Of a stretch of DNA of 64,000 nt, positions 3,069 to 5,740 are shown piece after piece. The DNA is from Flavobacteriales bacterium (GTDB lineage Bacteria > Bacteroidota > Bacteroidia > Flavobacteriales_F > PHOS-HE28): the NCBI GenBank assembly GCA_023957375.1, contig JAMLHB010000001.1:1528245-1592244 (forward strand), written 5' to 3'. How positions within the stretch are numbered: the first letter of the stretch is position 1; each line of letters starts with the position of its first letter. The notes beneath the pieces were generated by a model. The model was not told where the DNA came from and did no database searches. It was given only the letters and a program-made list of their open reading frames with translations. Made by a program: the position numbers and the translations under genes.

Positions 3069-3787
3069 AAACCACCCGCCATATCCTGGCCGTGCTGCTT
3101 GCCGCCGCGGCCACCGGTGCCGCCCGTGCCCAGGGCGAAGCGCCCCTGCGCTTGGTCAATGACGCACAACTGTGGTTCAGCGCGGCCACTGAGTTCAAGC
3201 CATTCCGCAAAAAACAGGGCCAAGTGGCGCAAGCCCGCTTCTTCCGCAAGCTGCGCGCCACCGTGGAGCTGGACTTGAGGTTGAAGGAAAACGCCTCCGA
3301 GCTTAACCAGACCAACATCAACGCCGGGCTCTTTTACGCCATCACCAACTACATGCGGGTGGGCTCCGAATACCGGTACAGCATCCGGGACCCGTACAGC
3401 GCCAATCGGCACCGGATCGATGCACAACTGCGTTTCAAGGGAAAGAAAGGGCGCCTGGACGGTGACTTCCGCACGAAATACCAGCACTCATTCGTAGCCC
3501 CAAAAAAGTTGCGGACCGAGCTCCGCAACCGCATCGGCCTGGAATACGACATCCCGAAGTGGAAGCTGGACCCCATTGTGAACGTGGAATCGTTCACCGC
3601 CCTGCACTACACCGGCAACCGCTTAGTGGGCATGCGCTACGACCTCGGCACGGAGTTCAGGCTGGACAAGAACAAGCAAACCACGTTGGAGATCACCCTG
3701 CGCCACGACAGGGAAATGAACATCAAGGAACCTGACCATGCCTGGGTACTGGCCCTGGCTTTTGAATATTCCCCCAAGAAAAAGTGA
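3065..3787 (+). CDS. DUF2490 family outer-membrane protein
   Basis: A 240-residue protein with a signal peptide (cleavage probably after ARAQ near residue 23). The mature part alternates polar and hydrophobic residues in the manner of a small outer-membrane beta barrel. The order of motifs (LWFSAATEFKPF, LRATVELDLRLKEN, YRYSIRDPYSANRHRI, LRNRIGLEYDIPKW, LALAFEYSPKKK) fits DUF2490, described in Bacteroidota as a putative outer-membrane protein of unknown role. The start is TTG, chosen because it overlaps the upstream stop (TTGA) and leads straight into the signal peptide. The end overlaps the next gene's GTG by four bases. Confidence 0.85.
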   Translation: MKTTRHILAVLLAAAATGAARAQGEAPLRLVNDAQLWFSAATEFKPFRKKQGQVAQARFFRKLRATVELDLRLKENASELNQTNINAGLFYAITNYMRVGSEYRYSIRDPYSANRHRIDAQLRFKGKKGRLDGDFRTKYQHSFVAPKKLRTELRNRIGLEYDIPKWKLDPIVNVESFTALHYTGNRLVGMRYDLGTEFRLDKNKQTTLEITLRHDREMNIKEPDHAWVLALAFEYSPKKK

Positions 3788-4449
3788 AAAACGCACCTTT
3801 CCTCCGCGCCGGCATCTTCCTGGCGATCTTCTTCGCCGCCGTCACCATTGGCTACTTCCTGTTGCGCCCGTCGGACGAACTGCCCATCTATCATCCCTCC
3901 CAACTGGACGTCCGCCTCGTGGACCGATCGGTGCGGGATGCCAAGGGCGAACACCACATCAAGCCCTTCCGCCTGATCGACCAGGACGGGGACAGCCTCT
4001 TCCTGGCCGACGTGCAGGGCAAGGTGCTGCTCACCGACTTCTTCTTCACCACGTGCGGCACCATTTGCCCCAAGATGAGCACCCAGATGGCCCGCGTGCA
4101 GGAAGCATTTGCCCAGGATGACCGCGTGCTGCTGCTCTCGCATTCGGTGACGCCGGAAGCCGATTCCGTGCCCGTTCTGCACGCCTACGCCAAGGAATAC
4201 GGCGTGGAGCACCACCGCTGGCGTCTGCTCACCGGCGACCGCAAACAGATCTACGACCTGGCCCGCACCAGCTACTTTGCCGTGATGGACCACGGCGACG
4301 GCGGCCCCGACGACTTCGTGCACACGGAGAACTTCGTGCTGGTGGACCCGCAAGGCCGGCTGCGCGGTTTCTACGACGGCACCAAGGCCAAGGAAGTGGA
4401 CCAGGCGATCAAGGATATGCGCAAGCTGCTGAAGGAGATGAAGGGCTGA
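3784..4449 (+). CDS. SCO1/SenC family copper-binding thioredoxin-fold protein
   Basis: A 221-residue protein with one N-terminal membrane anchor (AGIFLAIFFAAVTIGYFLL) and a periplasmic thioredoxin-like domain. The copper site is complete: CGTICP (Cys91 and Cys95 approximately) and the distal His in DFVHTENFVL near residue 180. SCO proteins deliver copper to the CuA centre of cytochrome c oxidase or act as thiol reductases. No oxidase genes are nearby, so the partner is unknown. The GTG start overlaps the previous stop (GTGA). It is the last gene of the operon that begins at 436. Confidence 0.92.
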   Translation: MKNAPFLRAGIFLAIFFAAVTIGYFLLRPSDELPIYHPSQLDVRLVDRSVRDAKGEHHIKPFRLIDQDGDSLFLADVQGKVLLTDFFFTTCGTICPKMSTQMARVQEAFAQDDRVLLLSHSVTPEADSVPVLHAYAKEYGVEHHRWRLLTGDRKQIYDLARTSYFAVMDHGDGGPDDFVHTENFVLVDPQGRLRGFYDGTKAKEVDQAIKDMRKLLKEMKG

Positions 4450-4513
4450 ACCGGCCGCTGCCACCCTACAGGCCATCGGGTCTGAACCGCCCGTTGAGCC
4501 AGCGGTCTCGATC

Positions 4514-4850
4514 AGTTGTTCGTTGTCAGTTGTTAGGGTTGACACGGCACATGGCGCGCGGTGGCCAATTCGTTGAGTTGAATCTCCGCCGACATTAGGG
4601 TTGCCCCCTCTGAACTGCGGAGTACCTTCAGACCCGGAATATGCAGTAGCTTGACTACTACGACCCGGAAACGCTTTACCACAGTGCGTTTCACGCATTT
4701 TCGTTCCTCACCGGGAGCGTGGCCCCGCTTTCGTCACGAAAATGCCTGTGGCTGTGCGTTTCCGGCTCTCGCAACGTCAGCTACTTCATAATCCGGGTCA
4801 GAACGCGTTGGATCGGTCCTGACAACGAACAACTTTCTACAAACAACCAG
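4514..4850. repeat. Large nested inverted-repeat element in a convergent spacer, with heptamer arms
   Basis: This fills most of the 460 bp gap between the SCO and DUF488 genes; no gene is credible here. Outer arms: AGTTGTTCGTTGTCAG at 4514-4529 is perfectly inverted at 4819-4834. Each arm is built of 7 bp units: TGTTCGT, TGTCAGT, TGTTAGG from 4517, and CCTGACA, ACGAACA, ACTTTCT, ACAAACA from 4818. Inner arms: 4631-4651 pairs with 4780-4800 at 19 of 21 positions. Further in, CCGGAAACGC and CACGCATTTTCGT segments pair with 4757-4764 and 4736-4745, allowing a loop of about 10 bases. The symmetry suggests a MITE-like or cruciform-forming element, but no transposase is nearby. Confidence 0.7.
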
Positions 4851-4909
4851 TCGAAACTTCAAATTCAGCCGGCAGTTGCGGACCCCAGGCCCGTTGGCCT
4901 TGTGCTACT

Positions 4910-5464
4910 CTACAGGTCGCGTGCAAAGGGCAAGGGATCTTCCACCGGCCCGTAATAGAGCTTCCCGTTCCTCAACCGCGCCGCCCCGGTCCATGGGTGT
5001 TCCTCCGCTTGGCCCAGCCCCTCGATGTGGTGCACCTGCCATCCATCCGCCTTAAGCCGGTCCGCAAGCATGGAACGGTGGCAGCGCCACCACAACACCT
5101 CGCTGCACATCATGCAGGTGCGTTGGCGCAGGGCCAGTCCCTTCAGTTCCTCCAGCCCTTGTTCAAAGGCCGGATCGTTCATCATATAGTCCGCATAACC
5201 GCGGAAGGCGGGATGCCGCCACACCGTGTTCGGCGAATCCTTCAACACCTTGCGCCTTCCGCCCAACGCCCGGACGTGCACATACTCAATGCCCGCCGCT
5301 GCCAGTTCCTTCGGCATCACCTCCTTGTTGAACCAAGGCACCCGCCGCGAACCGGGGTAGCTGCGCACATCCGCCAACACCTCAATACGGAATGCCTTCA
5401 GCCAAGCTAGGAACTCCTCCAAGGGATGCGTGGAGTGGCCAATGGTCCAGATCTCATGTTCCAT
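4910..5464 (-). CDS. DUF488 domain-containing protein
   Basis: A 184-residue cytoplasmic protein. The family start IWTIGHSTHPLEEFLAWL is followed by the hallmarks DVRSYPGSRRVPWFNKE, a YxHVxALGGRR element and a C-terminal MMCSEVLWWRCHRSMLAD block (the family's C-E-x-x-x-CHR motif). DUF488 proteins are widespread but have no agreed function. The ATG at 5464 is preferred over an upstream one near 5611 because the extra residues would translate the heptamer repeat array and have no family homology. The gene is transcribed toward the SCO gene. Confidence 0.88.
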   Translation of the reverse strand: MEHEIWTIGHSTHPLEEFLAWLKAFRIEVLADVRSYPGSRRVPWFNKEVMPKELAAAGIEYVHVRALGGRRKVLKDSPNTVWRHPAFRGYADYMMNDPAFEQGLEELKGLALRQRTCMMCSEVLWWRCHRSMLADRLKADGWQVHHIEGLGQAEEHPWTGAARLRNGKLYYGPVEDPLPFARDL

Positions 5465-5532
5465 AGCGCCTGCCAAAGCAACGCCTAAGTCCCGATAGTG
5501 TTCCGAGGGAAGTGCCGGAGGGTTTGGGGATT

Positions 5533-5740
5533 GTCCCGTGTCTGCTGTCCCATGCCTGACTGTCCTATGCCTGACTGTCCTATGCCTGCTGTCCCATGTC
5601 TGCTGTCCCATGTCTGTTGTCCTATGCCTGACTGCCTTAGGTCCTATGCAGTGCGTTGGACCAAAGCGTCAAAGCATAGGACCTAGAACAGCAAGCATAG
5701 GACATCATACAACAAGCATAGAACATCGTGCAGCAGCCAT
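5533..5740. repeat. Heptamer tandem-repeat array with facing inverted array
   Basis: From 5533 to about 5647 the top strand is a nearly unbroken run of 7 bp units with the form TGNNNNN (TGTCCCG, TGTCTGC, TGTCCCA, TGCCTGA, TGTCCTA and so on, about 16 units with an occasional extra C). From 5678 to 5740 come inverted 7 bp units of the form NNNNNCA (TAGAACA, GCAAGCA, TAGGACA, TCATACA, ACAAGCA, TAGAACA, TCGTGCA, GCAGCCA). The array occupies the spacer between the divergent DUF488 and ABC-F genes, ending about 35 bp before the ABC-F promoter box. Confidence 0.85.

Follow-up and report, generated by a model that had tools for sequence, protein, structure and literature searches.

Insertion sequences (ISs) of the ISAs1 family have CAGGG ends and target-site duplications (TSDs) of 8 to 10 bp, and TSDs in the IS1380 family range from 4 to 5 bp. 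The two families are reportedly combined in a mosaic from Paracoccus marcusii that, by its title, brings together ISPmar4 (ISAs1 family) and a module driven by IS1247a (IS1380 family). IS1247 of Paracoccus, itself of the IS1380 family, is listed with inverted repeats of 16/13 and a direct repeat of 5 bp (Table 2 of PMC3281130). The IS982-type MITECca01 of the endosymbiont Cardinium is described in PMC9769881 as multicopy and as also disrupting other mobile elements, and its likely parental IS is found in the same genome; by the same account, very few Cardinium MITEs are disrupted by other elements.

Here, we followed up a palindrome predicted from the letters alone at positions 4514 to 4850 of a 64,000-nucleotide stretch of a Flavobacteriales genome (the whole stretch that was analyzed, hereafter the window). 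The best explanation, which we hold with high confidence, is a pair of nested non-autonomous transposable elements, an IS1380-type MITE inside an ISAs1-type MITE. The original prediction spoke of a decayed MITE-like or cruciform element; its MITE character is borne out by dispersed copies, terminal inverted repeats, TSDs, empty sites, and full-size ISs of this genome with matching or similar ends, but the single decayed palindrome has to be replaced by two elements. The inner one is a fairly intact MITE with an exact 5-bp TSD, nested off-center; its host MITE belongs to a different transposase family and is more eroded. Judging from their sequences, the outer element was most likely mobilized in trans by a transposase of ISAs1 type and the inner one by a transposase of IS1380 type. 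Mobile DNA of this sort is ordinary, but the nesting is unusually clear here.

Like the Paracoccus marcusii mosaic, if its title is taken as a guide, the locus joins the same two transposon families in one structure; there a full IS accompanies a mobilized module, whereas here a MITE lies within a MITE. As with MITECca01, we see multicopy IS-derived MITEs with a likely parental IS that disrupt mobile elements, but the IS family is a different one and the outer MITE has been interrupted repeatedly. In the literature that we covered (titles and abstract openings, with few subscription journals), we found no ISAs1- or IS1380-type MITEs of this bacterial group and no bacterial MITE nested in another. 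Both MITE families, although of a known kind, are apparently not yet described. What was an anonymous palindrome now stands as two types of mobile element, each with defined ends and duplications and a probable partner transposase, and both families become annotatable across the genus.

Two elements within one palindrome

The division into two elements is apparent from the distribution of copies. The original prediction had proposed a search for further copies, and these were present both in the source genome (3.83 Mb, 4 contigs) and in genomes of the same genus. A search of the source genome with positions 4500 to 4850 returned 36 matching pieces whose limits form blocks: query positions 1 to 133 and 299/301 to 351 recur together (the outer element) and positions 133 to 299 recur alone (the inner element), with both blocks in the window's arrangement at three places. 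The same blocks recur in the same-genus genomes. Matches to the query were found in 16 of 45 of these genomes (the source included), a count that overstates true copies because several matches consist of only 22 to 30 bp of a GTTGT-rich stretch.

Most of the predicted geometry held up. An inverted-repeat search recovered the outer arms, at 4514 to 4529 on the plus strand and 4819 to 4834 on the minus strand, as a perfect 16-nt inverted repeat. They are subterminal arms of the outer element, whose ends lie 45 bp beyond the left arm (4469) and 68 bp beyond the right arm (4902). The palindrome is real, and the true ends of the outer element fall outside the limits first given to it. As claimed, the two 21-nt inner arms agree at 19 positions, although the right one lies at 4779 to 4799 and had been placed one base too far along, at 4780 to 4800. 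Further inner arms do pair (4662 to 4684 with 4746 to 4768, 78%; 4692 to 4704 with 4736 to 4748, 92%), about a center at 4715 rather than near 4730. The roughly 100 extra bases noticed on the left are also there (4530 to 4632, versus ∼21 on the right), because the inner element is placed off-center within the outer one. Together, the inverted ends of both elements and the hairpin-like body of the inner one produce the palindromic look. Perfect inverted repeats of at least 16 nt within 400 nt are scarce in the 64-kb window, with 13 k-mer pairs at 5 places. Comparison with shuffled sequence had been suggested for the fold, which proved stable far beyond chance: the RNA fold of positions 4500 to 4850 has a z-score of −6.1 (0/100 shuffles as good), and the inner element alone reaches −8.45 as RNA and −7.9 as DNA (0/200 shuffles each).

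The inner element is an IS1380-type MITE of subfamily B, 165 bp long (4633 to 4797, plus strand) and near-palindromic over its whole length. It is flanked by exact copies of TCAGA at 4628 to 4632 and 4798 to 4802; the site reads as uninterrupted CTTCAGAACG in L006, an outer copy without insert that is continuous at both inner sites. A scan of the source genome for the inner ends, allowing up to 3 mismatches, returned 54 places versus 3 for a reversed control, mostly paired at a spacing of ∼168 bp. The family includes 23 full-length copies in this genome (167 to 188 bp when the flanking A and T are included in the scoring), and its bodies form at least two near-palindromic subfamilies, A and B. 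Among all loci read, 39 of the 40 paired inner ends enclose MITE-size sequences of 69 to 189 bp. Exact 5-bp duplications were found at 25 of these 39 in the source genome and its relatives (14 had none), and 24 of the 25 read TNNNA. In the target logo, which was built from 26 sites with a repeat picked from the 40, T and A each occur at 24 of 26. Based on this duplicated target, the inner element proper is CCCGG...CCGGG. A TSD of 3 or 4 bp was considered but given up in favor of 5 bp, which has precedent in the IS1380 family (the direct repeat of IS1247 is 5 bp). Among named genomes, inner copies with exact ends were found in 8 stretches of three metagenome-assembled genomes (MAGs) titled Flavobacteriales or Bacteroidetes bacterium.

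The outer element (4469 to 4902, plus strand) is an ISAs1-type MITE of 434 bp, or ∼264 bp after subtraction of the insert and one copy of its 5-bp TSD. We placed its ends using the margins of outer copies from the source and same-genus genomes, 19 on each side; the edges of the family are sharp, reading CAGGGCCATCGGG on the left and CCCGATGGCCCTG on the right. Relative to the end consensus CAGGGCCATCGGGYCTG, the window copy has lost one G on the left and carries two substitutions on the right. Its flanks, TGCCACCCTA (4459 to 4468) and TGCTACTCTA (4903 to 4912, overlapping the stop codon of a minus-strand open reading frame [ORF] at 4910 to 5611), are identical at 8 of 10 positions, and this imperfect TSD is consistent with an older insertion. 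The TSDs that were to be looked for according to the original prediction are present for both elements, exact for the inner one and, for the outer one, imperfect here and exact over 9 to 10 bp at some other copies. Counting 9- to 10-bp duplications with no more than one mismatch, 6 of 13 outer-family copies have one and 7 do not, and other short families with CAGGG-type ends have one in 11 of 14. Both features typical of ISAs1, the CAGGG ends and the TSD length, are thus present in the outer family. Both elements are short, lack a transposase, have dispersed copies and terminal inverted repeats, and have TSDs and empty sites. Some predicted ORFs of the window do run across the palindrome.

The source genome holds a rich set of ISAs1-type MITEs. 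Further short CAGGGC-ended families with 9- to 10-bp duplications were seen at L101 (4292 to 4494), L141, L146, L139, and L158, and also at L078 (1195 to 1439), L080, L103, L079, and L086; the one at L078 lies ∼60 bp from an inner-type element.

Probable partner transposases

The CAGGG-type ends and 9- to 10-bp duplications of the outer element suggested the ISAs1 family, and its transposase was then searched for and found. Three 1,216-bp ISAs1 elements, each with an exact 10-bp TSD, reside in the source genome (L163, L164, and L165); they are bounded by CAGGGCTATCGCGTCTT ends and encode a transposase of 368 amino acids (371.7 bits, cutoff of 70). The outer element shares with ISAs1-family ISs and their derived MITEs its CAGGG...CCCTG ends and its 9- to 10-bp duplications, but its consensus end agrees with the resident ISAs1 end at 14 of 17 positions and differs at 3, and no similarity of its body to the resident element is evident beyond the ends. 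Based on these differences, the resident ISAs1 element may not be the present partner of the outer family.

An IS1380-family element of 1,419 bp (contig C1, 733812 to 735230) carries an inner-type 17-bp end at both sides and encloses a 441-amino-acid ORF that matches Pfam DDE_Tnp_1_4 and scores 254 bits against the NCBIfam IS1380 model (cutoff of 180). The inner ends in the window differ from those of this element by one mismatch each over 17 bp. The element is single copy in the source genome, where no TSD of its own was found. With IS1380-family ISs and their derived MITEs, the inner element has in common a 5-bp target duplication, 17-bp ends, and a noncoding, multicopy nature; it is unlike them in having at least two near-palindromic subfamilies and in a likeness to the full-length element that is confined to the 17-bp ends, with nothing evident further in. 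We propose that both elements would be moved in trans by DDE transposases, the outer one by an enzyme of the ISAs1 family working at CAGGG-type ends and the inner one by an enzyme of the IS1380 family working at CCCGGATTATGCAGTAG-type ends.

Across 44 genomes, the IS1380 transposase exceeded its cutoff in 1 and the ISAs1 transposase in 3, and inner ends with at most one mismatch were present in 11. One further genome (G018) has near-identical C-terminal fragments of the IS1380 transposase at two contig ends. Thus, many carriers of inner ends show no partner transposase now; draft assemblies lose repeats.

Nested copies in diverged hosts

Inner elements have entered the outer family at two sites. 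Subfamily B sits at TCAGA in the window copy, L002, and L099, at the same base and in the same orientation. Alignment of outer copies places the second site at 4593 to 4597 (CATTA, plus strand), where the window copy is free; it is filled by subfamily A in forward orientation in L099, L126, and L127 and in reverse in L101 and L116 (G020), so that L099 carries both an A and a B insert. A different palindromic element occupies the A site in L115 (G020), whose left flank is similar to that of L101. Another observation concerns this third palindromic kind, which has ATACCA...TGGTAT ends and a similar CTTGCTC-TTTTCC stretch: it occurs in L115 (G020, contig C92) and L189 (1060 to 1530; G020, contig C242), that is, both inside an outer element and in a junction of the two genes that flank the outer element in the window.

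The inserts are much more alike than their hosts. Between the three B hosts, the inner element differs at 0 to 1 of 167 positions, whereas the left and right outer parts are 84 to 91% identical (86 to 88% taken together), and the A inserts of L099, L126, and L127 have identities of 0.976 to 0.994 versus 0.862 to 0.877 for the outer sequence. The right inner end reads CTACTTCATAAT in all three B hosts, and two solitary copies taken for comparison have CTACTGCATAAT; overall, copies at the same site have end changes in common (2 for B and 8 for A) that are absent from the solitary copies compared. A near-identical insert in outer copies of 86 to 88% identity argues against a recent spread of the two elements together. 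From the inner and outer identities and the common end changes, it is likely that the insert was copied recently from one diverged host to another, probably via recombination (gene conversion) between dispersed outer copies.

Two other accounts have to be weighed against gene conversion. The composite might have formed in one nesting event and then moved as a unit, ISAs1-type transposition giving the three B-bearing copies. The window copy, L002, and L099 do agree in insertion base, orientation, and right inner-end change, and L127 and L116, both outer copies with an A insert, are each flanked by an exact 9-bp TSD. We consider this account unlikely, however, given the near-identity of the inserts, A as well as B, within unlike outer sequences; the composites also do not cluster in the outer tree (where support is low). 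Recent spread as one unit is disfavored by these identities, and an old one would presuppose that the inner part changes more slowly than the outer. The other account, in which the outer copies were a landing pad for repeated, site-preferring insertion, is somewhat more plausible but still doubtful. In its favor, outer elements harbor 7 of the source genome's 23 full-length inner copies, versus 0.16 expected under a uniform model (12 outer copies, 11 of them counted, and an assumed intergenic share of 12%); this excess is overstated and indicative only, because the seven are not independent events. The A site is filled in both orientations, the apparent G020 counterpart of L101 has its different palindromic element at the same site, and outer differences persist to within ∼6 to 12 bp of the B insert. 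Against it, the general target is only TNNNA, and the common end changes of same-site copies are lacking in the solitary copies compared. Identity within 15 columns of the insert is raised at the A site among A-bearing copies (0.90 to 0.97 versus 0.77 for all pairs) and weakly at the B site (0.87 to 0.94 versus 0.85), the all-pair means leaving out L115, L121, L122, L123, and L128. Likewise, B-bearing copies all read TCAGA, including L099, whose relatives L101, L113, L118, and L119 read TGAGA; yet TCAGA is also found in L006 and L121, both of them empty. Gene conversion, which fits the TCAGA flank of L099, is the probable route, with repeated insertion as a possible alternative.

As a tentative reading, the outer family could be both a landing pad and an exchange platform, on which unrelated palindromic MITEs enter two fixed sites time and again and then spread by conversion between outer copies that had already diverged. 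If so, a non-autonomous element would multiply without transposition. Near-identical inserts at one base in diverged hosts are a natural experiment on gene conversion versus site preference, and more genomes would let the two be separated for bacterial MITEs.

The hairpin and the gene junction

The two arms of the inner element evolve together at least in subfamily A, a pattern that both selection and arm-to-arm correction fit. The subfamily A alignment has 18 sequences, among them L129B, which we retained despite a poor alignment toward its 3′ end. Pairing is preserved in 96.9% of its pair cells, and both partners have changed in 8 of 49 pairs; 0/500 shuffles reach either value, and slid controls give 1 to 2 such pairs. 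These values would favor selection acting on the hairpin itself, at the DNA or RNA level, for instance to protect transcript ends between convergent genes. We nevertheless regard that as quite improbable: further pair types are no more numerous than in shuffles (16 versus a mean of 16.5), several of the double changes trace to a single split into two sublineages, so that the events are few, and the pairing scheme itself came from this alignment. Moreover, in subfamily B, where 7 of 54 pairs have changed on both sides, the covariation term is unfavorable (+1.57), and template switching from arm to arm would give the same pattern without selection. No terminator or promoter was found at 4400 to 4960, and no Rfam family matched at gathering level; the sole match was to a snoRNA family, at 15.5 bits versus a gathering score of 42, and a structured RNA was rejected. 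A repetitive extragenic palindrome (REP) moved by a Y1 (RAYT) transposase is hardly credible as the identity of the palindrome. The source genome does have nine Pfam Y1_Tnp matches, one of them ∼2.4 kb from the L002 copy, but the end scan of that genome returned no inner ends beside the Y1_Tnp places. TSDs are present, whereas to our knowledge REPs moved by RAYT leave none, and DDE-type elements with such ends reside in the genome.

The outer element sits between convergent ORFs at 3784 to 4449, which we take to be SCO1-like, and at 4910 to 5611 (minus strand), presumably DUF488-like. The two genes are adjacent in 7 of 9 relative loci (L182 to L186, L188, and L189), and the outer element is absent from the junction in all seven, so the insertion is lacking from the relatives seen. 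Of these junctions, that of L182 resembles the outer element solely in GTTGT-rich sequence, and that of L189 holds other palindromic sequence. Tandem arrays of GTTGTCAGTTGTTGG-like 7-nt units lie between genes at L182 (1383 to 1480; G018), in this same junction, and at L125 in the source genome (C1, 1289600 to 1290500); they resemble the GTTGTTCGTTGTCAG stretch inside the outer element. A nearby intergenic region of the window (5532 to 5734) is repetitive and partly inverted: a sequence around TGTCCYATGYCTG recurs in five degenerate direct copies and a AAGCATAGGACAT-like sequence of 21 nt in three, and the two sets pair as inverted repeats (84 to 100%). Elsewhere in the source genome (C1, 1838521 to 1838755), CAGGGCGATCGTGCCTG recurs at an exact spacing of 109 bp (1838521, 1838630, and 1838739), with more copies nearby, in what looks like a tandem array.
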